A stretch of DNA of 39,710 bases from a virus. Shown piece after piece: positions 6,461 through 39,317 of this stretch. The position numbers were made by a program, and so were the translations under genes. Each line of letters starts with the position of its first letter. Within the stretch, counting starts at the first letter, position 1. Below the pieces are notes generated by a model that was given only the letters and a program-made list of their open reading frames with translations, made no database searches and was not told the DNA's origin. The stretch is from positions 1 through 39,710 of IMG/VR virus record IMGVR_UViG_3300045286_000094; one strand, written 5' to 3'.

Positions 6461-9400
6461 ATGCCGACCTCCGATGAATACCTTGCAGCTCTCCGGCAAA
6501 CAGCCCCCGTTGCGCCCAAAACTGCCGCCTCTCCCCAGAAGGAAGATCCCTACCTGAAAGCGATTCAGGAGACGGACCCATATCTTCAGGTACTTCGAGA
6601 AACAGGAGCCGGCGCCCCAAAGAATCCCCTGCAGAAAGCATGGGCTTCGATCGGGACAGGGTTCTCTGGTGTCTCTCACACGATGGCCGGGATCCTCAGA
6701 AACTTCGGCCGCGATCCCTCGATCCCAAAGACCCGTGAAGAACTGGAAGCAAAGAAGGCCGAGTGGATGCAGATGCGTTCCAAGTTCACGAAGCAGGAAG
6801 ATAAGGATATTGCCGTCAAGGTCATCGGAGAGATGGAGCGGACCTTTCAGCAGTATCAGGTATCAGACGAGAAGTTCGATGAGTCGATGAAAAACATCGA
6901 CGCATTCCTTGATCAGAACACGCACTTCAAAGATCCGCGGTATCAGCCGAAAGGGTTCATCGAAAGCATTGCTTATGGAGTGATAAGTTTTCTCCCCGAA
7001 GCGCCCCTCTATTCGTTTGTCGGTGGGCCTGCCGGGAAGTTTGTTGAGGGAGCGCTCGAATCCGTAGCCAAGAAGTTTGGTCCCGAGGTCGCGGCGAAGG
7101 TCGCTGAGTCTCTGCCCGAGCTCTATGCGAAGGCCAGGAAGTATGCCCTTGATACTGGAGTCAAGATGGCTACCGCAGGAACCGAGGGAGCGGTGACCGA
7201 GCTTGCGGCCGGGAAATCACCGGAAGAAGCAGCGATGACAGGATTGCAGTTTGCCGGGGCAACCGGGGTGTTCCATACCTTTCTGGGGGCTCTTGGCGGA
7301 TTCCTGAAAACTGCTACCAAGAAGCTTGAATTCAAGAAAAAAGAACCAACCTTTGAGCAGCCCGAAGACGGTTTTGATGCCTCTCCGCGACCAGATATTC
7401 CCGCTTCCATGAAGGATCCATCCACCATGCAGGAGCGAACAAACGAAGAAATCCGGAAATCGAAAGACCTTGCTCGGCAACTGGATATTCAAGCGCTTGA
7501 AGAGAAGCGCAAGCGATGGGGCGAGATGGCAGACAAAACCGAGTTTACTACTTGGATGCGAAAAGACATGGAAATGCAGGATGAGCTTGTTCGTCTTGCC
7601 GGCGAAGGAACGGAGGAGCGCGGAAAGAACATCGGCTTCGAAGAGCTTTTGGACCAGGAAGCGAAACGGAAAGCTGAGGGGCTCAAACCGGAAGATCTCG
7701 GTGAGCAGGAAATTCCGTCCTCTCTCGACGGCAGCGGAGAAGCCCGTGATCCAAACCCGCATATGCCGCAAACCGAGGAAGTCGAACAGCTTCCCTTCTT
7801 TGAAGAACTGTTCCGCAGCTCTGAAAAGTTCCCCATTGCAAAAGACTTTTTTACCGTGACGCGCCGTCTCTCGGAAAAAACGCTTGACTGGTTCCGGAAC
7901 ATTCCGAACCTCACGAGACTTGGGCTTGCAGATGAATCATTCTACCTGGCGTCCGCTCGGGCGGTTGCTCCGAAGGTCACAGATGATCTGGTCGCTCGTG
8001 TGATGGGAACGGAAGTGGTTGATGGCGTCCCGTTATACAAGAACGAGCGTGCGAAGCATCTTGTCATGCAGTTCCTCAACAGACTGCGGCAGGTTTCGCA
8101 GGTGCAGGCAGATCAGAAATTCATTACTGATTCAAACAAGCGGCTTGCCGAAATCGAGAAAGAACTGAAGGTTATGGATGAAACGGCAAAATGGGCCGTG
8201 CAACCTGATAAAGAATCTTTCACCAGAACGCGCACGAAGATCGAGCCGGTCGAACCCGGTTCCGAATCTTTTGTCAGATCAGGTGGTCGTATTGAACCGA
8301 TAAAAAGGGGTGCAGATCTTCGTTCTGTCGATCGGCTTCATGAGCAACTTGCAAACAGGGACAAGCTTATCGCAGAACAGAAGAAGCTGAAAGAGAGCGT
8401 GACGATCTTTGAACGTCGAGTGCAGGAAGCGCTTGATGCCCACGATCACGCTCTTTTTGAAGACCGCATTGCACAAGCATTCCGCAAGGATGCTATCGAG
8501 ATATGGGGCAGCCAAGCTGATCCTCTTGAAATTCTCACTCCGAAAGAGATCATGGAACGGAGCAGAGCAGAGGGCAAGGAGATCAGCTATAAAGAAGCGG
8601 TTGAGTTGTCAAATCAAGCGAAGCTGAAGGATTCCTGGCGTGAGCGGACCTCTCCCATGATCGATGCCATGACAAACGAGAAGAGGGATCCGCTTGCCAT
8701 CGAAGGGGATATCCGGGCAGCAAGGAAGCTCGCGGAGGAGAACCTTGTTGATCCGATCCATAAGACTCTTTACCCTTCTCAGCCTCTTTTCAAAGTCCCA
8801 AACCTGCGGGAGATCCTTCGCCGGTACCAGGACATCGTGAATCCGCATTGGGATTCGATGTACCGGACCGCGCACAACATTCCCGAGTCCGTGGATATCG
8901 GGAGCCATGGGCAGTACGCAGAATATGCTGCGCCCGATGTTTACAAGTACAATCCAGAAACGAACAGAAAGGAACTTACCCACCGGGCAGAGACATTCAA
9001 GCTTGCGGTCCGGCTCGTGGGGAAGCATACGGAGGTTTCCGGCGCGACGAAGAAAGAATACGGCAAGAAAGAAGGCCGGCGTCCGTTCGAGGAAGAAGAC
9101 TATGGACAGCCTCGCGGTACCGCAGGAACCACCAAGAGCGGTTTCGCACAGGGAGCCAAGGGAACAAGCGAGTACACGACATGGATGGAAAAGAACTTCA
9201 TGTCTGTTCTACAGGAAAGCGGGGTCAGCGCGGCAAAAGAAACCTTCTACCGGAAAGCTCAGCAGAATGGAGCAATGGCTTTCACTTCCGGAGACATGCC
9301 AGACAAGGAACTTCCGCAGGGGGTCTCCTGGGTGAAACTGCAAGAGGGCCCGGTCGAGCGGCAGCGCCACAATCCACAGACCGGGAAGATCGAGAAGGTG

Positions 9401-11098
9401 TACGATCATGCCTGGGTCCGGTCAGACGCCTACAAGGAAGTTCGCACGCTTCTGGATCTCGATCAGAACCAGAAGCCGTTCTTTCTACTGCAGTTCGCCA
9501 CGACTGTGCAGTTGAAACAGCTTGCCGATTTCGTGGTCCACGGCAAAAACCTGATCACCGAGGTAGCCAGATCACAAGGTAAGCCCTATGGGAAGGTGCA
9601 GGAGCTTCTGGACAAGATCCCGATCCTTGGCCATGCCGATGCCTACAAGCTGATGCGCGACGCATGGAAGGCCATCGAGACTGATTCTCCGAGGATCCGT
9701 TCCGAGATGCGGGAGCTTGCCGAACTTGGTGTTCTTCGAGGGGAACACGGGGCAGACGATATCGTTGCGACCGCGCATTATCTCTGGAAGATGGATACCG
9801 GGGCCAGGCTGCTTCTGAGCAGGTTCTACAAAGAACTCGTGAAACGAAACCTCGTGGAGTACTCAAAGACCGGACACCGTGACTTTGTTCTACAGGTCGG
9901 CATGTATAATGACCGGCTTATGAACCATTTCAAGCAAAAGGTGCGGCGTTTTGGATTGTCCCCATTCCTTGTCGCCGGTGAGAATTTCAATAAGCAGGCA
10001 TGGCGAACGCTCTACACAAACTATGCCGGCGCTGAGGGCAAGGACGAGCAGGCAACAAGCGACATGAAAGCAGTCAACATGGCCGGGACGATGATTGTTG
10101 CGACCATCCCGATGATGCTGAACTACGCCACGACAGGAACGCTTCTCGGCCGGGAAGGAACACCGCTGCTTGCCTGGGACCTAGGGAATCCGAAACGGGA
10201 AGACGGCACGTTTGATGTTCTTCATTTCGGGCAGCTGAGCGGACATGCCAGGGCGACGAGGTTGCTTGGTCTGGAAGCATTCTATCAAGGCGTGAGAGGC
10301 GGACAGACACCTGAGCAGACCGCAGGTCACATGAAAACGCAGGCGTGGCAATCCCTCACGCATCCATACCTCGGCCCGGGTGCTTCTTCGCTTGAGGCGC
10401 TGCACGACAAAGAGGGATGGAGAGCGGCCCTGTCGAAGCTAAACCCAGTGTTTTCGTTCCTTGATATCAAGAAACCGGGACGCCGTGAGTTAGAGACGCT
10501 TGAAAAAACAGGTGGCAAGAAGACCGCTGATGTCTATGCTGCCCGATATCTGGATTCCCTGATGCGCTCTCCTTCAGGAGCGCTCGGGGCCAAATCGGTC
10601 CGTGCGCCTCTTTCCGCTATGGCTGAGTACGTCATCGAAAACAGGACCAAGGGAAGCGCCATGACGGATGAATCAGTTCAGAATATCAAGCTGCATGAGT
10701 TTGCGGACCAGGTCTATCAGGAGTCCGAGACAAAGTATCCGGGCTCAGGCGATGATGCCATGCGTCAGTACATCATGGATCAGATCCAAAAGGGTGTCCT
10801 CAAGAGCAAAACCTTTGCCGAGAAGATTTGGCGGGAACGGAAGCTGAACCACCTGCAGCGCGGCTTCAAGCAACTGGATCCCGAGAAGGCGATCAAGGCG
10901 TATGAGCTTGCGACTCCCGAGGAGAAGGCACAGACCTTCACGATCCTTTGGAAGAAGATCGAAGACCGGAAAGGGAAACATCTTGACTATCCGCTCTGGT
11001 ATGAATATGCTAATCGCAAGCGCGAGGAGATCATGATGTTGATGGACCAGGGCATTATCAACAAGTCCGATGTTTACATGACCACGGGGGTACACTGA
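6461..11098 (+). CDS. Giant internal virion protein, 1545 aa
   Basis: The largest gene, with a CGAGGAG ribosome site right at the upstream stop. The N-terminus repeats a DPYL..(I/L) motif (residues about 28-48), then comes a mixture of helical coiled coils (300-480, 560-690), a Gly/Ala-rich segment near 165-290 and a hydrophobic stretch near 1205-1230 (MIVATIPMMLNYATTGTLL). Size, helical nature and position after smaller helical proteins match the largest ejection protein of podoviruses (the T7 gp16 role) or phage large polyvalent proteins. I see no convincing lytic transglycosylase or protease motif. It ends in a one-base TGATG overlap with the next gene. Confidence 0.85.
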   Translation: MPTSDEYLAALRQTAPVAPKTAASPQKEDPYLKAIQETDPYLQVLRETGAGAPKNPLQKAWASIGTGFSGVSHTMAGILRNFGRDPSIPKTREELEAKKAEWMQMRSKFTKQEDKDIAVKVIGEMERTFQQYQVSDEKFDESMKNIDAFLDQNTHFKDPRYQPKGFIESIAYGVISFLPEAPLYSFVGGPAGKFVEGALESVAKKFGPEVAAKVAESLPELYAKARKYALDTGVKMATAGTEGAVTELAAGKSPEEAAMTGLQFAGATGVFHTFLGALGGFLKTATKKLEFKKKEPTFEQPEDGFDASPRPDIPASMKDPSTMQERTNEEIRKSKDLARQLDIQALEEKRKRWGEMADKTEFTTWMRKDMEMQDELVRLAGEGTEERGKNIGFEELLDQEAKRKAEGLKPEDLGEQEIPSSLDGSGEARDPNPHMPQTEEVEQLPFFEELFRSSEKFPIAKDFFTVTRRLSEKTLDWFRNIPNLTRLGLADESFYLASARAVAPKVTDDLVARVMGTEVVDGVPLYKNERAKHLVMQFLNRLRQVSQVQADQKFITDSNKRLAEIEKELKVMDETAKWAVQPDKESFTRTRTKIEPVEPGSESFVRSGGRIEPIKRGADLRSVDRLHEQLANRDKLIAEQKKLKESVTIFERRVQEALDAHDHALFEDRIAQAFRKDAIEIWGSQADPLEILTPKEIMERSRAEGKEISYKEAVELSNQAKLKDSWRERTSPMIDAMTNEKRDPLAIEGDIRAARKLAEENLVDPIHKTLYPSQPLFKVPNLREILRRYQDIVNPHWDSMYRTAHNIPESVDIGSHGQYAEYAAPDVYKYNPETNRKELTHRAETFKLAVRLVGKHTEVSGATKKEYGKKEGRRPFEEEDYGQPRGTAGTTKSGFAQGAKGTSEYTTWMEKNFMSVLQESGVSAAKETFYRKAQQNGAMAFTSGDMPDKELPQGVSWVKLQEGPVERQRHNPQTGKIEKVYDHAWVRSDAYKEVRTLLDLDQNQKPFFLLQFATTVQLKQLADFVVHGKNLITEVARSQGKPYGKVQELLDKIPILGHADAYKLMRDAWKAIETDSPRIRSEMRELAELGVLRGEHGADDIVATAHYLWKMDTGARLLLSRFYKELVKRNLVEYSKTGHRDFVLQVGMYNDRLMNHFKQKVRRFGLSPFLVAGENFNKQAWRTLYTNYAGAEGKDEQATSDMKAVNMAGTMIVATIPMMLNYATTGTLLGREGTPLLAWDLGNPKREDGTFDVLHFGQLSGHARATRLLGLEAFYQGVRGGQTPEQTAGHMKTQAWQSLTHPYLGPGASSLEALHDKEGWRAALSKLNPVFSFLDIKKPGRRELETLEKTGGKKTADVYAARYLDSLMRSPSGALGAKSVRAPLSAMAEYVIENRTKGSAMTDESVQNIKLHEFADQVYQESETKYPGSGDDAMRQYIMDQIQKGVLKSKTFAEKIWRERKLNHLQRGFKQLDPEKAIKAYELATPEEKAQTFTILWKKIEDRKGKHLDYPLWYEYANRKREEIMMLMDQGIINKSDVYMTTGVH

Positions 11099-14963: not shown

Positions 14964-16310
14964 TTAGCGACGCGCTAACTTGTCACCGCTCATCCGGAAG
15001 GAGTGTGAAACATCGGGCTTGATCTTCCATAACTTCAATGCCAGCTTGCTTGCGGCCTCGTCGCCCTGGAGATCGTTGCACATCTGCCGGCTGCTCTCGA
15101 TCGCGAGATAAGCATGGTACAGCAGGATCCTGTTCAGAGTGTGCGAGTTTGTTGCTGCGTTCGGGATGACGGTGTTCCAGAGGAACCGATCGCGCATTCC
15201 ATCTGCCTGCCGCATGTCGCTGACAGAGACCTTCTTCTCGTCCTTCTTCTTCTCTTCCTTCTTGGCCTTCGGGAAGTTCATGTCGTTGAAGCAGGACGGC
15301 TTGAGACAACACTCCACTTCTACGACATGCCCTGAATAGTTCTTCACGAAAGCATAGGCCCGGTGTTCACAAGGAACACACTGAGAAGCGTACCGCTTCG
15401 GTTTTGTGTGCGGTCCCGCTCCGTTTGGGTCGATCTCGAGCATCCGGCGCCGGTCGTTCCTGATTTCGAGATATTCGTTCTCAGTCAGCACGCGGATCTT
15501 CTTCTCGGTGAGCTCCTTCTTCTTCGCGGCATAGTGATCGCTTGTCTTCTTGATAAAACAGCTCTGCATCAGGCACCTATCGCTTCCCTTGACGTCGTCG
15601 GGGAAAAGAATTGCCTGGTTCTTGTTCCGGGAAGGGCAAGTCTTGCATTCCGTCTTGTCGAAGACTGCAGCTGAAAGTTCTGTAGCGTTCGACAGCACGC
15701 GCTGATTGATCGCTGCGGCCGTGAGTCCCTCAGAGATGACGTTCTTGAGCGCCGCATCCTGTTCCTTTGGAAGTCCCAGGCGCCCGATCGCGAGAGCCTG
15801 TGAAAGGTTGATTTTCTCTTCCAGAACGGCCTTTTGAACGTTGTCGCTGAGGTCGAGCAGCTTGAGCCGGGCATAGACATACCGGATCGATACGCCGAGC
15901 TGTTCTGCCACCTGATCGGGTGTGATCTTTCCAGATTCGAGAACGTCGCGGATCCCGTAAGCCTCATCAACAGGATTCGGATCGTCTCTTTGGATGTTCT
16001 CGACCAAGCGCAGGAAGCGAACGTCCTCGTCCGGGATATTGCGAATGAGTGCAGGGATGGTCTTGAGGTTTGCTTTAACTGCCGCCGTATGTCTGCGGTC
16101 GCCGGCCACAATCTCGTAAACCACCGTATTGTTGCCCTCGATCATTGTGCGGACCAGAATAGGCTGCAGAACTCCTTTCTCTGCGACGCTCTTGTTGAGC
16201 TCTTCCTGCTTCTCCTTGTGAACGTGCTTCCGGTAGTTACCGTTTTTCCTGATGAGATCCATGTTGAGCATTGTCACAACGTCCTGGTTTATTGCTGTTG
16301 CTTCTTCCAT
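14964..16310 (-). CDS. ParB/Spo0J-like protein with Cys-rich C-terminus
   Basis: 448 residues; ATG 16310 has GTAGGAGGGG in front, while the longer frame to 16376 has no site. The N-terminal ParB domain is clear: a LQPILVR strand, GDRRH (residues 70-74, the nucleotide-binding motif) and ENIQRDDPNPVDEA. A helix-turn-helix follows (PDQVAEQLGVSIRYVYARL). The C-terminal half has two Cys clusters (CKTCPSR...CLMQSCF and CVPCEHR...CCLKPSCF), probably zinc-binding. No ParA ATPase is encoded, so it more likely acts as a regulator or DNA-clamp protein of phage replication than in partition. No parS-like site was recognised. Confidence 0.85.
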   Translation of the reverse strand: MEEATAINQDVVTMLNMDLIRKNGNYRKHVHKEKQEELNKSVAEKGVLQPILVRTMIEGNNTVVYEIVAGDRRHTAAVKANLKTIPALIRNIPDEDVRFLRLVENIQRDDPNPVDEAYGIRDVLESGKITPDQVAEQLGVSIRYVYARLKLLDLSDNVQKAVLEEKINLSQALAIGRLGLPKEQDAALKNVISEGLTAAAINQRVLSNATELSAAVFDKTECKTCPSRNKNQAILFPDDVKGSDRCLMQSCFIKKTSDHYAAKKKELTEKKIRVLTENEYLEIRNDRRRMLEIDPNGAGPHTKPKRYASQCVPCEHRAYAFVKNYSGHVVEVECCLKPSCFNDMNFPKAKKEEKKKDEKKVSVSDMRQADGMRDRFLWNTVIPNAATNSHTLNRILLYHAYLAIESSRQMCNDLQGDEAASKLALKLWKIKPDVSHSFRMSGDKLARR

Positions 16311-16428
16311 TTTTCCCCTCCTACTATTAAGATTCTTTTGGCTATACCTATACCTATGGAGGCATCGATTTCGCATATGCGTTTTTAATGCCTTCGCATT
16401 GCGAACACAGAAACAGAAATTAAAGATA

Positions 16429-25843: not shown

Positions 25844-25872
25844 TTGACATCGTAACAGTTCTCTGGTATTGT
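25844..25872 (+). promoter_or_regulatory. Rightward promoter with operator, leaderless start
   Basis: TTGACA (25844-25849), 17-bp spacer, TATTGT (25867-25872). A perfect inverted repeat CGTAACA (25851-25857) / TGTTACG (25870-25876) covers the spacer and -10. The ATG at 25880 is seven bases after the -10 box, so transcription should begin at or one base before it. Confidence 0.75.
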
Positions 25873-26380: not shown

Positions 26381-26552
26381 ACTCCCGGTGTTCGATCCGG
26401 TGAAGGGGTACGGGGAGGCCCTGCGCTACGTCGAGGGGCTTACTGTAGGGCGGGAGATGGAGCCCTACACGGACGGGGAGATCAAGTCCATGAGCGGGCA
26501 GAAGGATATTATCGAGGCGAAAAATGCGCTACGTTCTGACAATACGAATTGA
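26364..26552 (+). CDS. 62-residue unknown protein
   Basis: CGGAGGTT site six bases before ATG 26364, overlapping the previous gene. Contains FDPVKGYGEALRYVEGL and ends with a basic/charged helix. No family recognised. Overlaps the next gene by 29 bases. Confidence 0.65.
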   Translation: MAIPLELPVFDPVKGYGEALRYVEGLTVGREMEPYTDGEIKSMSGQKDIIEAKNALRSDNTN

Positions 26553-26709
26553 TGTCGATGCGAAGGACGACCTTGACGCGAAGGAAAAGGTGAAGGCTCT
26601 CGGGCCGATATCGATCCCGATGTCTTTTTCTGTCGGGAAGAAAGAATGGAAGCTGCAGAAGATCCACAAAGACAAAGGCCCTGTGAAGCTGGAAGGAGGG
26701 TTGTGGTAA
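26524..26709 (+). CDS. 61-residue beta-rich protein
   Basis: GAGGCG before the ATG (moderate). YVLTIRIDVDAKDDLDAKEKVKALG with a strand-helix order and a basic end (KKEWKLQKIHKDKGPVKLEGG). Resembles a small ferredoxin-like fold, unproven. Its stop overlaps the next start (TAATG). Confidence 0.6.
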   Translation: MRYVLTIRIDVDAKDDLDAKEKVKALGPISIPMSFSVGKKEWKLQKIHKDKGPVKLEGGLW

Positions 26710-27011
26710 TGGACCGCCGCTCTTTTTTCAAGGCTCTCGTCGTTCTTCCCTTTGTCCCGATAAAAGAACTGATCGATGCTCTTGTTTCTCCTGGCCCGGC
26801 TTCTTTGCCGTCCGCTGCGGTTGCTTCATCGGAAGTTGCTGCACAGCTCACCGCCTTGACACGCAGGGCATACCTTCCGAAGATGGTCGCGTCGATCTAT
26901 GAGTCTTCACCGCAGTTGTCCGGGCTTCTCGCAACGGGTGGAGTCAAATTGTCGGAGGTCACGCACGCATGGAACAGGACAACAGAAGAAAATTCAAACA
27001 AGGAGGAATGA
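26709..27011 (+). CDS. Tat-like protein carrying a copy of the capsid N-arm
   Basis: 100 residues, AAGGAGGG site, TAATG overlap. The start DRRSFFKALVVLPFV matches a twin-arginine signal (RR-x-F-F-K and a mild hydrophobic core). Residues 43-75 align with residues 15-47 of the major capsid protein (start 33949): 20 of 33 identical, including LTALTRRA and the PK..V..IY.S.P.L pattern. The rest is Glu/Asn-rich. So this is an exported-looking protein with a capsid-derived segment, lying just upstream of the terminase genes. Function unknown; a capsid-assembly decoy, a superinfection factor or a relic of duplication are all possible. Confidence 0.75.
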   Translation: MDRRSFFKALVVLPFVPIKELIDALVSPGPASLPSAAVASSEVAAQLTALTRRAYLPKMVASIYESSPQLSGLLATGGVKLSEVTHAWNRTTEENSNKEE

Positions 27012-27013
27012 AC

Positions 27014-27343
27014 ATGCAGCATGAAATGGTTGACGGTCTGGAAGTGTATCAGTGCCACAAGACGGTTCGCGCCGGGAAGATCAAGATGATCGTTGTCTTC
27101 TCGGACTTGAACGGCACGGTCGTCCTCGACAACAAGAATGAGGTTAAGGTAGACCGCAAGTGGCTCGAACGCCACCGTCCTATGGTGGACGGGTATCTCG
27201 TGCAGTACAAGGACGGCTACCTGTCCTACTCACCCGGGCCGGTCTTTGAGGAGGGGTATTCGAAGATCAACAAGGACCAGGAGCCTACGACAACCGTTCC
27301 CCTCGGTCCCACGACCGCCCCGCTCGTCATGGGGAAAGCGTGA
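27014..27343 (+). CDS. 109-residue conserved phage protein
   Basis: ATG 27014 is seven bases after GGAGG; the ATG at 27008 is too close to it. Contains VYQCHKTVRAGKI, VKVDRKWLERHRP and GYLVQYKDGYLSYSPG, a pattern I recognise from many phages next to nuclease and terminase genes. Function unknown. Its stop overlaps the DUF1064-like start (TGATG). Confidence 0.75.
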   Translation: MQHEMVDGLEVYQCHKTVRAGKIKMIVVFSDLNGTVVLDNKNEVKVDRKWLERHRPMVDGYLVQYKDGYLSYSPGPVFEEGYSKINKDQEPTTTVPLGPTTAPLVMGKA

Positions 27344-27696
27344 TGTACGGACAGAAGCACAGAAACTTCGCCCTGGGTCGGCTGAAGACCGGGCAGCGCA
27401 ACAAGACCGAGGCCGCCTACGAACAGAATCTCCTGCTCCTGCAACAGTCCGGAGAGATACAATGGTATCGCTTCGAGGGCCTGAAGCTCCGTCTTGCCGA
27501 CAACACGTTCTATACGCCGGATTTTGCTGTCATGAACAAGGACTGTGTGCTTGAACTGCATGAGGTCAAGGGGTTCTGGACTGATGATGCGCGGGTCAAG
27601 ATCAAGGTGGCCGCGGATTCCTACCCGTTCCGGTTCATTGCGGTAAAGTTGAAGCCGAAGAAACAGGGCGGCGGTTGGGAAAGAGAAGAATTCTAA
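27343..27696 (+). CDS. DUF1064-like PD-(D/E)XK nuclease
   Basis: 117 residues (a GTG one codon earlier is possible). The nuclease-like core is visible: TYAYEQNLLLL-type helix, RFEGLKLRL, YTPDFAV, then LELHEVKG, where D and E-x-K form the motif. Basic C-terminus with GGGWEREE. DUF1064/VRR-NUC-like small phage nucleases act in DNA processing; here it sits right before terminase, so a packaging or resolution role is possible. Confidence 0.75.
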   Translation: MYGQKHRNFALGRLKTGQRNKTEAAYEQNLLLLQQSGEIQWYRFEGLKLRLADNTFYTPDFAVMNKDCVLELHEVKGFWTDDARVKIKVAADSYPFRFIAVKLKPKKQGGGWEREEF

Positions 27697-29441
27697 TGGG
27701 TGTTCTCGACAAGTTCCCGGCCTTCTGCGCCGCCCTCAAGATCAACTCGAAGGAATACGGCAAGGTTCCTCTTAACTTCTGGGGGACGCAAAAGTATTTC
27801 CTGCAACAGGTCCAGAAGGGCATCGACGAGGGCAAGAGATTCTTTGTTACCTTGAAAGGCCGGCAGGGTGGGGTAAGCACGGCGTCTCTTGCTCTCGTTC
27901 TTTTCTGGTTGTCGAAGTATCGCGGCACGCTTGGCTCCCTGATCGTCGATGATGGATCGAACCTGATCCGCTTCCGTTCGATCCTCACGGGCTATATGAA
28001 TTCCCTCCCCCCCGAATTCCGCGTCAGAAAGAAATCGCACAACATCCACGAGCTTGAGCTGATAAACGAAAGCGTCCTCTCCTATCTCGTGGCCGGGAAA
28101 CGGAAGAAAGCTGAGGGCGGCGATCTCGGACAGGGCAAGGGGCTCAACCTCGTGCATGGGACGGAAGTGTCTTCCTGGTCGGATGAGAAGCAGATCGACA
28201 AGCTTGTTGACTCTCTTGCCAAGATACATCCGAACCGCCTTTATCTGTTCGAAAGCACCGCGAATGGATTTAACCTGTATTACGACATGTGGGAGACCGC
28301 AAAGAGAGCAACGACACAGAAGGCGATCTTCATCGGATGGTGGTTGCAGGAAACCTATCAGTGCGACCGGAACAGCAACGAATTCCGCGTCTATTGGGAC
28401 GGGAAGATGACGAAAGAAGAATCGATGTGGGTCCGCGAAGTGAAGCTGCGGTACGGGTTCGAGATACGGCCTGAACAGCTTGCGTGGTGGCGATTGAAAT
28501 ACTACGAGGACAAGCGGGAGGACATGCAAGCGCTCTATCAGGAGCACCCGCCAACAGAAGAATATGCGTTTCAGATGAGCGGATACAAGTTCTTCAGCAG
28601 CGAGCTGCTTACATCGGACTATAAGCGCGCGCTAAAGGAAAAACATGAAAACATGCGATACCAGTTCGGAAATGACTTTGTTGACACGCGAGTACATCGC
28701 TGCACACTTGCTATCTCTGAGCTCAAAATATGGGAGAGGCCGAATCCGAGTGGAGTTTATGTTATTGGCGCCGATCCTGCCTACGGCTTCAACGAGAATT
28801 CGGATCGCTCAACAGCCTCGGTATTTCGATGCTATGCGGACAGAGTGGAGCAGGTCGCTGAATATTCCGCAAGCGGTGTTGGGACTGCACAGTTCGCGTG
28901 GGTTCTCCTTCATCTTGCCGGAGCCTATAAAAATGTTCGAGTCAACCTGGAGCTCACCGGTCCGGGGAGTGCGGTCTTCAACGAGCTGCAGAACGTGAAA
29001 AAGATGCAGTCGATCCTTCCCGGCGGGTTTGCTGACGAGCTCTCGGGCATGGTGCATCACCTGTGGGCAAGAGAAGACACGCTCAGCAAGTCGTTCGCTT
29101 ATCACACGAAGACGAATGCGGAAGGCAAGGAGCTGATGTTGAACCGCATGAACGATCTCTGGAAGTCGCGCATCCTCGTGCTCAACAGCCTTGAATTGCT
29201 CACCGAGATGAAATACTTTGCGCGTGACGGGGCTGTGCTCGAGGGCCGGGGCGGGGAACACGACGACCGGGTCATTGCGGCCGCACTTGCAATCATCTCA
29301 TATCTGGCCTGGGCAAAGGATCCGCTTGTCATCGCAAACCAGACATTTGCCGTCGCGAAGGCAGCGGACGAGGCAGGGAAGGGACCGGCAAGCGATCTCA
29401 TCATGAACTTCCTTAAACAACGAGGGCTCATAAAAAAATGA
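27696..29441 (+). CDS. terL: Terminase large subunit
   Basis: 581 residues. ATG 27696 overlaps the preceding stop (TAATG); the longer frame uses a TTG. N-terminal ATPase: Q-motif NFWGTQKYFLQQ, a Walker A of the K54-G-R-Q-G-G-V-S-T kind, Walker B LVHGTE157, then TANGFN. C-terminal nuclease: VIGADPAYG (D360), an L-E-L strand, and HDDR (D523, D524). It cuts and pumps DNA into the procapsid. No TerS-like gene was clearly recognised upstream; the HTH gene at 29551 is a candidate. Confidence 0.95.
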   Translation: MGVLDKFPAFCAALKINSKEYGKVPLNFWGTQKYFLQQVQKGIDEGKRFFVTLKGRQGGVSTASLALVLFWLSKYRGTLGSLIVDDGSNLIRFRSILTGYMNSLPPEFRVRKKSHNIHELELINESVLSYLVAGKRKKAEGGDLGQGKGLNLVHGTEVSSWSDEKQIDKLVDSLAKIHPNRLYLFESTANGFNLYYDMWETAKRATTQKAIFIGWWLQETYQCDRNSNEFRVYWDGKMTKEESMWVREVKLRYGFEIRPEQLAWWRLKYYEDKREDMQALYQEHPPTEEYAFQMSGYKFFSSELLTSDYKRALKEKHENMRYQFGNDFVDTRVHRCTLAISELKIWERPNPSGVYVIGADPAYGFNENSDRSTASVFRCYADRVEQVAEYSASGVGTAQFAWVLLHLAGAYKNVRVNLELTGPGSAVFNELQNVKKMQSILPGGFADELSGMVHHLWAREDTLSKSFAYHTKTNAEGKELMLNRMNDLWKSRILVLNSLELLTEMKYFARDGAVLEGRGGEHDDRVIAAALAIISYLAWAKDPLVIANQTFAVAKAADEAGKGPASDLIMNFLKQRGLIKK

Positions 29442-33393: not shown

Positions 33394-33918
33394 ATGGCAC
33401 CGGAAGCAGAGGACAAGGAAGAACTCTTGGTCATGGGACGCATTGCGAAGATGGTTCACGGCAACAAGAACACACGCCGGAAGTTTCTTCGCCTTGTGAA
33501 AGAAGTGGACCCGGAAACACCGATCGCCGAGCTCGAAGCAGAAGATGTTCTCGAGGCGCGCATCAAACCGATCCAGGACGAGAACGCCGAGCTTCGCAAG
33601 AAGATCGAACAGGGCGAAGCAATGAAGGATCTGGAGAATCGGAGAACCCCGCTGCGGAACAAACTGCGGGCGCAGAAACTTCCCGAGGATCAGATCGAAA
33701 AGATGATTCTCGACACCGAGAAGGTCATGATCGAGAAGAAGATCGGGGATTACGAGATTGCATTCGATTACAAGACGAGGAATGAATCGGTTGCAGCTCC
33801 CGCAAAGGCCCCATTTACGCCCGTTTCCCTGCCAACCGTGGTGGATGCTAATTTTTTCAAAGACCCCGCAGCGGGCGCACGCAACCTGGCGGCGCAGTAT
33901 TTTGCGGAAAAACGCTAG
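33394..33918 (+). CDS. Scaffold-like coiled-coil protein
   Basis: 174 residues; GAGGCAGG site. Long charged coiled coil at about residues 40-125 (EDVLEARIKPIQDENAELRKKIEQ), a short loop and an end that carries FFKDPAAGARNLAAQYFAEKR. Position directly before the major capsid protein, size and helical nature fit a scaffolding protein. Confidence 0.8.
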   Translation: MAPEAEDKEELLVMGRIAKMVHGNKNTRRKFLRLVKEVDPETPIAELEAEDVLEARIKPIQDENAELRKKIEQGEAMKDLENRRTPLRNKLRAQKLPEDQIEKMILDTEKVMIEKKIGDYEIAFDYKTRNESVAAPAKAPFTPVSLPTVVDANFFKDPAAGARNLAAQYFAEKR

Positions 33919-33948: not shown

Positions 33949-34986
33949 ATGCCTGTTCTCGGAACCGGGATCATCCCTGCGACTGGCGCGGTAGCGAGCG
34001 AATTGACCGCGTTGACCCGCAGGGCATTCATCCCGAAACTCGTCGTACAGATCTATAAATCGACACCCACGCTGGCCGCGCTCATCGCAAGCGCACAGAC
34101 AGCGTCGGGCGGTATCAGCTCAATCACTCAGCCGGTACAGGGAGCGTCATACGTCAACAACTCCTGGGCCGGCTACAACGGCAACTTCCAACAGCCCTCC
34201 ACGCAGGTCGGGGCGCAGAATGCTGAGTTCAACCTCAAGCTTTCTATCGTCCCGATCCCCTTCCTTGGGCTTGAGGGAATTGTCCAGATGGGTCACGAGG
34301 TCATCCCGATCGTGGAAGCCCGAATGAACGACGCGATGAATGTCATCAAGGACGCATTCGCCACCGCGCTGTTCAACAACATCGGGGCCACGAACGCGGA
34401 CGGTACTTCCAACTCGCAGGCCCTCGGCTCGCTCCCGGCCTATGCCGATGACGGCACGAATGCCAGATACTATGGCAACCTCGACCGACAGGCCACGGGA
34501 CCGGCAACCTGGTGGAAGTCGTACTACCAGAACTATGGCGTGATCACTACGCCTACCCGGGCGCAGGTGATGACGATCATTGCCGGCGCCACGAAGTATG
34601 CCGGCGGCGAAGCGCCGAACATCGGGATCATGGGTTGGGGGACGTGGATCAAGCTCGCTCAGGACTTCCTGGGCCAGGAGCGCTACATCGTCGATTCCGG
34701 CTTCAGCATGGGCCAGGTCGAGACCGGTTTCCGCGCGCTCATGGTGTCGGGCGTGCCGATCTTCCCAGATCCGTACATGACAGAGGGCGAGCTTCTTCTG
34801 CTCAACACGAACTATGTGGGTCTGCATTTCCACGAAGCTGCCTCGTTCTCCTTCACCGGGTTCGAGTCCACGCTTCCGAACATGCAGCTTGGATACGTCG
34901 GCGCCGTCGTGACGATCGCCGAACTGGTCGGTTCCAAGCCCAAGACCACGGCTCATATCAAAAACCTCTCCTACGAGAGCCTGTAA
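33949..34986 (+). CDS. Major capsid protein
   Basis: 345 residues; AAAGGAGGAAC site. The N-arm includes VASELTALTRRAFIPKLVVQIYKSTPTLAAL, which is also found in the small protein at 26709. The core has a long helix (VIPIVEARMNDAMNVIKDAF), a beta region and GWGTWIKLAQDFLGQERY, and ends with FSFTGFESTLPNMQLGYVGAVVTIAELV. Size and order (scaffold before, decoration-like after) point to an HK97-fold capsid protein, although no family signature is certain. Confidence 0.9.
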   Translation: MPVLGTGIIPATGAVASELTALTRRAFIPKLVVQIYKSTPTLAALIASAQTASGGISSITQPVQGASYVNNSWAGYNGNFQQPSTQVGAQNAEFNLKLSIVPIPFLGLEGIVQMGHEVIPIVEARMNDAMNVIKDAFATALFNNIGATNADGTSNSQALGSLPAYADDGTNARYYGNLDRQATGPATWWKSYYQNYGVITTPTRAQVMTIIAGATKYAGGEAPNIGIMGWGTWIKLAQDFLGQERYIVDSGFSMGQVETGFRALMVSGVPIFPDPYMTEGELLLLNTNYVGLHFHEAASFSFTGFESTLPNMQLGYVGAVVTIAELVGSKPKTTAHIKNLSYESL

Positions 34987-38199: not shown

Positions 38200-38829
38200 A
38201 TGGGACTCTTGACGCTTCCAAGAACATTTGCGAACCTGACAACTGCATTACTTTCTTATCTGGATGATAACTTTGTCGCAATTCGAGATCTTATCAACGG
38301 AAATCTTGATGCGACAAACGTGACGGATTCACAAAAGGTTGTTGGGATCGTACCGACAACCAGTCCTGCGGCAAATAAGATCCCGATATCAGGAAGTGAT
38401 GGAAAGATCGCCGCTGGGTGGATTCCGGTTATTGGATCAGGAGCATCTGGATTTCAATCGGCTTTTGATAATGCAGATTCTTCATATCTGGATTTGCTAT
38501 TCCCTAACGTGATAGCAGGAGATATTTTACTGATTACTGGGGCTCTGCAATATGGCGGATCTGCACCAACAGCAGCAGCAGCTAGGTGTTATAACTCAGG
38601 TCTAGGCACTGCGCTATGGGAACCATGGCCGCATAATTGGTCGGGTCAATTTTATAGGGTTTTTAGCGCGGAAGAGTTAGTCAGTCAGTATGGAGCATCA
38701 TTTGCTTTTCTGATAGTGGTCACAACAACTGGCAATGGAACATTGAGTATAAGACTCTTCCCGGTTGATTCTGGTGGATCAGGGAAAACAATGCAGCTTA
38801 GTGGCTGTTTTTTACTTAAACAATCATGA
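38200..38829 (+). CDS. Tail fibre-like protein, 209 aa
   Basis: Starts 11 bases after the previous stop with GGGAGAC. N-terminal short helix (FANLTTALLSYLDDNFVAIRDLING), then beta-rich repeats; a single CFLL near the end. The order and its ATGA overlap with the collagen-like protein suggest a tail fibre or chaperone-like subunit. Confidence 0.7.
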   Translation: MGLLTLPRTFANLTTALLSYLDDNFVAIRDLINGNLDATNVTDSQKVVGIVPTTSPAANKIPISGSDGKIAAGWIPVIGSGASGFQSAFDNADSSYLDLLFPNVIAGDILLITGALQYGGSAPTAAAARCYNSGLGTALWEPWPHNWSGQFYRVFSAEELVSQYGASFAFLIVVTTTGNGTLSIRLFPVDSGGSGKTMQLSGCFLLKQS

Positions 38830-39317
38830 TCTCTCGTCGTCCATTTAATTCGAACATCACTCCAAGCGATGCCTTGGCGTGGCACAAGTTCTTGTTTGAT
38901 CTCAACATCACACTTGATGAGATCTACTTGGCTTGTAATCGCGGGGGTGTGGGTCCGAACGTCGGTCCGGCGGGGCCTCCTGGCCCGGGGGGCCCTACGG
39001 GAGAACCGGGAGCTCAGGGCCCAATGGGTCCGCAGGGAGTACAGGGGCCTGTCGGGCCGGCAACATTCACTCCTCGTGGGCCGTGGAGCCCGCTCACAGC
39101 ATATGTTTTCGGCGATGTGGTCACTTATGCCGGTTCGAGCTGGTATGCGCTTGTACCGAACACGAACTCGATTCCCGACCTGTTGAATGCCGACTGGTCG
39201 TATCTGGCGCTTGTTGGAGCTCAGGGACCGATGGGGCCGCAGGGTTTGCAGGGACCACCGGGGCCTGGCGGTGGCGGGGGAAGTGACAACGGAGAAAGGG
39301 CCTGGTTCTTCGCATGA
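38826..39317 (+). CDS. Collagen-like protein with carbohydrate-binding domain
   Basis: 163 residues; overlaps previous stop (ATGA). A N-terminal helix, then a Gly-X-Y collagen-like run at about residues 40-79, then PWSPLTAYVFGDVVTYAGSSWYAL...WSYLA, which resembles CBM5/12 (chitin-binding-like) motifs, followed by another Gly-Pro run and a GGGGG hinge. Collagen rods in phages make trimeric fibres, and the module could bind host surface sugars. It ends in ATGA with the next gene. Confidence 0.8.
   Translation: MISRRPFNSNITPSDALAWHKFLFDLNITLDEIYLACNRGGVGPNVGPAGPPGPGGPTGEPGAQGPMGPQGVQGPVGPATFTPRGPWSPLTAYVFGDVVTYAGSSWYALVPNTNSIPDLLNADWSYLALVGAQGPMGPQGLQGPPGPGGGGGSDNGERAWFFA

Follow-up and report, generated by a model that had tools for sequence, protein, structure and literature searches.

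The 39,710-nt sequence from an uncultured phage analyzed here (hereafter the window) encodes, at 26709-27011 on the plus strand, a 100-aa protein, P0001 (MDRRSFFKALVVLPFVPIKELIDALVSPGPASLPSAAVASSEVAAQLTALTRRAYLPKMVASIYESSPQLSGLLATGGVKLSEVTHAWNRTTEENSNKEE), which resembles the N-terminal arm of the phage's own major capsid protein (MCP) over part of its length. Comparison of the two genes indicates that a 90-bp block of P0001 (26847-26936) is a partial copy from the phage's own capsid lineage and not a mimic. We hypothesize that P0001 is a lineage-specific small modulator of capsid assembly that arose by partial duplication and acts on the phage's own shell or on that of a co-infecting relative. 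We hold this reading tentatively, at less than even confidence, as the most likely of those we considered.

The P0001 ORF runs from an ATG at 26709 to a stop codon at 27009-27011 and is laid out as a leader, the capsid-arm copy and a charged tail. A strong Shine-Dalgarno-like AGGAGGG (26694-26700, plus strand) lies 8 nt 5′ of the ATG. The start codon overlaps by one base the TAA of the preceding 61-aa ORF (26524-26709, plus strand; TAATG at 26707-26711), and the P0001 TGA overlaps the ATG of a downstream 111-aa ORF (27008-27343, plus strand; ATGA at 27008-27011) that has its own Shine-Dalgarno, AGGAGG, at 27001-27006. Given the Shine-Dalgarno site and the overlaps with both neighbors, the gene looks translated and appears to be a well-formed, translationally coupled member of a rightward gene group. 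This group leads into a resolvase-like gene and the large terminase, portal and capsid genes. The predicted placement before the terminase cluster was borne out: P0001 lies 664 bp upstream of the large terminase subunit gene (27675-29441, plus strand; PF17289 above cutoff, phrog_2), with two small genes in between. A promoter-like site (25844-25872, plus strand; 10/12, extended -10) precedes the group, in a region where such sites are no more frequent than expected by chance.

Elsewhere in the window, imperfect 84-bp direct repeats at 1277-1503 encode SDSAVHGVGTSTVASYASVTGAISAHA-like units within ORF 760-2199, the product of which is probably a fibre or appendage protein, and collagen-like G-x-y repeats occur at 38826-39317 in a tail-fibre-like protein (phrog_5073). 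A 470-aa ParB-like protein is encoded on the minus strand at 14964-16376 (phrog_4715, E 1e-31). The longest ORF (6461-11098, 1545 aa) had no PHROGs match at E≤0.01, and neither Rfam families nor tRNAs were found in the 39,710 nt.

Residues 43-75 of P0001 are identical to MCP residues 15-47 at 20/33 positions; this match, like the coordinates and length of the protein, is exactly as the original prediction gave it. The best local alignment (P0001 39-76 with MCP 11-48) has 55% identity and a raw score of 113, whereas none of 2000 shuffles exceeded 65. The match was recovered by tblastn within the window (E 9e-11) and by a second, separate search (E 1.5e-9), and blastn aligned the arm gene with the MCP gene at 72% over 85 bp (E 1.7e-5). 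Among the 338 window frames of at least 60 aa, only P0001 and the MCP itself scored above 50 against the MCP, the next-best frame reaching 50. By these measures the resemblance is beyond chance; nor is it a product of low complexity. P0001 retains TRRA-x-x-PK-x-V, a Y and a P from the arm. The match is confined to MCP residues 11-48, with the E-loop, spine helix, P-domain and A-domain absent from P0001, and the NF033394 capsid profile does not match it; P0001 itself is not a capsid protein. Searches with P0001 of viral_contigs, the phage collection, PHROGs, Pfam, NCBIfam and PADLOC returned MCP arms only, and the anti-phage defence models of PADLOC-DB gave no match up to E 10.

The MCP (33949-34986, plus strand; 345 aa) scored 122.2 bits against NF033394 (capsid_maj_Podo), above the curated cutoff of 80, and also matched phrog_9953, 'major head protein'. 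A model built from 35 sequences (pLDDT 78) has the HK97 fold, with matches to 7f38_A (Z 22.5, rmsd 3.5, 301 aligned) and 1ohg_A (Z 17.4). The model opens with a helix (residues 14-23), an extended segment (24-39) and a second helix (40-47), all of them ahead of the E-loop and of the spine helix (118-146), so that the copied block, MCP residues 19-48 (34003-34092, plus strand), corresponds to the N-arm. Across 61-66 distinct MCP arms this region (TRRAFIPK[LM]VVQ[IL]Y) hardly varies. Structure prediction, which had been suggested for both proteins, was usable for the MCP but not for P0001, whose model (mean pLDDT 57.5) is not interpretable.

We compared the DNA identity of the two stretches with that expected if they merely encoded similar peptides by random codons. 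The block encoding P0001 residues 47-76 shares 62/90 bases with the MCP gene, compared to an expectation of 52.2 ± 2.9 (p ~0.0004), an excess of 3.4 s.d. Arms from other MCP loci (n = 169) showed a mean excess of 0.2 s.d. and a maximum of 2.3. Because identity to the phage's own MCP gene exceeds the codon-choice expectation and the 169 other arms behave differently, this comparison supports a partial copy over mimicry. Convergent mimicry of the arm with no common origin, which we disfavor as the least credible of the explanations, conflicts with this 3.4 s.d. excess; it does have a possible parallel in a related locus, G016/L176 (3049-3276; IMGVR_UViG_3300036717_000038, 8048-8275), where a 75-aa ORF carries the arm-like stretch TLRNALPGLVRNLYNQNPLLSRLIGRE at its C-terminal end (E 1.5e-4). 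The arm-like stretch of that ORF is identical to its own MCP DNA at 38/90 positions, with 42 expected, and no relatives of the ORF were found, so it is at best an independent resemblance. We note that this ORF is ATGA-coupled to the ORF that precedes it.

The same test gave no DNA kinship in the eight codons before the block or in the DNA after it, which puts the length of the copy at about 90 bp. P0001 residues 77-85 (GGVKLSEVT; 26937-26963, plus strand) could extend the protein alignment, with a gap, to MCP GGISSIT, a protein-level match that is unsupported by DNA similarity. We also considered whether P0001 is what is left of a complete second capsid gene and rejected this, as there is no DNA similarity beyond the arm block. 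The prediction of a partial capsid paralogue is thus supported by the HK97-fold MCP, the N-arm block and DNA kinship specific to the phage's own MCP gene.

The proximity of the block to the terminase gene, which starts 0.7 kb downstream, together with the blastn match over 85 bp at 72%, would suit a duplicated DNA element, such as a packaging, recombination or regulatory site, of which the shared protein sequence is a by-product. The pattern of change speaks against this account, which we rate very improbable: replacements are conservative at the protein level, second codon positions differ least (6/30, compared to 10 and 12 at the others) and the longest exact runs are short.

Over the core, pairwise dN/dS between P0001 and the MCP is 0.29/0.80 (NG86), values that constraint on the MCP alone could produce. 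For this reason, we simulated drift in which the copy changes neutrally and the MCP changes only synonymously, up to the observed nucleotide divergence. Scored with a family profile from which both window sequences were excluded, drifted copies reached 21-23 ± 11 bits compared to the 60.3 observed (0/1187 runs). A drift test on BLOSUM scores that allows for detection bias, in that only recognizable copies are noticed, gave p 0.005-0.011. At 8/12 replaced positions, the new residue occurs in the same column of family MCPs. The copy is, in aggregate, more arm-like than neutral change predicts, which we take as moderate evidence for partial constraint to retain arm-like chemistry, exerted either in P0001 or, prior to capture, in a capsid gene. 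The 12 amino-acid changes are not few and their number fits neutrality (p ~0.16-0.23), and no significant association was found between the changed columns and the variable columns of the arm (p 0.09). The copy lacks Q34, present in 61/61 MCPs, and V33, present in 60/61; real MCP arms carry up to 4 family-unseen residues, as many as the copy does.

Using the MCP, the arm and the terminase as queries, we scanned both viral and genome contigs and obtained ~250 loci. These contain 189 arm-bearing MCP frames, 65 of which are preceded by 7.3 kb or more of sequence. No stand-alone arm homologous at the DNA level was found in the ~250 related loci or in ~31 longer related records; the arm-profile scan returned only MCPs in the ~250 loci and no stand-alone arm in 30/31 of the longer records, the exception being the 75-aa ORF described above. 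The closest relative (L093; terminase 63%, MCP ~65%) has different genes and no arm gene at the syntenic place before the terminase gene. Screening viral_contigs with a degenerate DNA pattern that joins a TAT-like start to the arm gave 0 matches, and our literature search, which reached few subscription papers, returned no description of a stand-alone coat-arm protein. As far as these loci and records extend, P0001 appears unique to its lineage. The original prediction proposed seeking the same gene pair in relatives, where it did not recur, and was to fall if the shared stretch proved low in complexity or the gene a random fusion absent from relatives; the stretch is not of low complexity, but none of the relatives examined has the gene.

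This distribution fits the main rival to our hypothesis, an unselected or recent fusion in which a fragment of a diverged capsid gene from the same lineage became joined to a small ORF, for instance through recombination in a co-infected cell, and as yet has no function. The arm gene is missing from all relatives examined, including the one closest by both terminase and capsid. The number of amino-acid changes is compatible with neutrality, and real arms also carry up to 4 residues unseen in the family. Under such a fusion, the arm-like constraint would have acted inside a capsid gene before capture. Loss of Q34, which is invariant in real MCPs, and of the near-invariant V33 suggests instead that the sequence diverged after leaving the capsid gene, and the DNA excess specific to the phage's own MCP, the intact reading frame and the coupling signals also argue against an unselected fusion. 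We consider it a real possibility, second to assembly modulation.

Residues 1-46 of P0001 (26709-26846, plus strand), comprising the leader and a linker, have no known relatives and match no family in Pfam, PHROGs or NCBIfam. The twin-arginine, export-like start that had been predicted was recovered in part. RRSFFK is present at residues 3-8, with DRRSFFK (2-8) fitting the motif (S/T)RRxFLK, and RR-x-F-[FLM] starts are rare (1/4986 ORFs in related loci). It is followed by only 10 uncharged residues (ALVVLPFVPI) and then KELID, and none of the Pfam and NCBIfam models, those for TAT and signal peptides included, matched at E≤1. Compared to proteins bearing TAT signals, P0001 shares RR-x-F-F-K near the N-terminus but appears to differ in its short h-region, the KELID right behind it and the lack of a model match. 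We read the start as a twin-arginine motif only, which weakly suggests that export is possible.

One explanation that gives the leader a role is a membrane tether, in which the leader anchors P0001 at the inner membrane while the arm docks onto the growing procapsid. RRSFFK and the hydrophobic stretch would suit it, and there is a precedent in T4, where prohead assembly starts from a membrane-bound portal initiator with gp40 (PMC9958956). A further parallel is a distant relative on a Chloroflexi MAG contig (L174, 9941-11077), whose full-length MCP frame opens with a signal-peptide-like hydrophobic leader (MRLRALLTVLVLLLVVPVTADAAV...). This leader-bearing frame has a good Shine-Dalgarno of its own, and none such was seen at the usual MCP start. 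Because this frame is known from one MAG contig only and a survey of 400 genomes gave no relative, it may be an oddity or reflect a faulty assembly. Against a tether, 10 uncharged residues are too few to cross a membrane, the signal-peptide models gave no match and the L174 parallel stands alone. We regard tethering as improbable.

Returning to modulation of capsid assembly, we propose that the phage duplicated about 90 bp of its capsid gene, encoding arm residues 19-48, into a small gene that heads the packaging and head group, where placement behind an unrelated leader would have yielded the 100-aa protein. If expressed, P0001 may still occupy or compete for the capsid-arm site, on a neighboring capsid subunit or on a scaffold protein (the likely scaffold is encoded at 33394-33918), and would then act as a low-level modulator of, or competitor in, procapsid assembly, whether of its own shell or that of a related co-infecting phage. 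In the P22 procapsid, scaffold binds at the coat N-arm, which after maturation reaches a neighboring subunit (PMC9965877); by analogy, an arm copy free of the coat protein would presumably compete for these scaffold and neighbor-subunit sites. The significant match, the kinship with the phage's own MCP DNA, the coupled gene, the drift tests and the location of the block in a structured N-arm favor a modulator. Its singleton status, loss of the invariant Gln and near-invariant Val, a change count that fits neutrality and the p of 0.09 for the changed columns count against it.

A more specific version, which we think unlikely, is a phage-encoded 'capsid-arm peptide', kept separate, that docks in the arm site and either poisons the shells of competing relatives or tethers assembly, possibly at the membrane. 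If the arm copy does bind at the coat-arm site, the phage would have made an assembly regulator, or a weapon against relatives, out of a piece of its own shell protein, a natural example that would be simple and unlike both the scaffold mimics and the full coat homologs of satellites. If P0001 is instead a fusion without selected function, it illustrates how proteins of this kind might begin.

We know of no coat N-arm copy in any of the satellite capsid redirectors CpmB, Rcm, TcaP and Sid. The window, for its part, does not resemble a satellite without head genes, as it encodes a terminase, a portal and an MCP of its own. Scaffold-like or external-scaffold proteins with which satellites redirect the capsids of their helpers include CpmB and Rcm (PMC12409344), TcaP (PMC10945586) and P4 Sid (PMC7552001). 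These are likewise small proteins that act on capsid assembly, an activity shown for them and proposed for P0001, but they resemble scaffolds or form external cages, whereas P0001 resembles the coat N-arm. SaPIbov5-type satellites, according to the account in PMC10945586 citing Hawkins et al. 2021, encode a full-length capsid homolog that forms pentamers. As described there, this too is a second, altered copy of a coat protein, one that takes part in shell assembly, but it is satellite-borne and full-length, whereas P0001 has about 30 arm residues and resides in the phage itself. The HK97-fold MCP of the NF033394/phrog_9953 type is the source of the copied block and differs in having the E-loop, P-domain and A-domain that P0001 lacks. 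Set beside the satellite capsid redirectors, a phage that carries a copy of the coat arm alone would represent a new variation.
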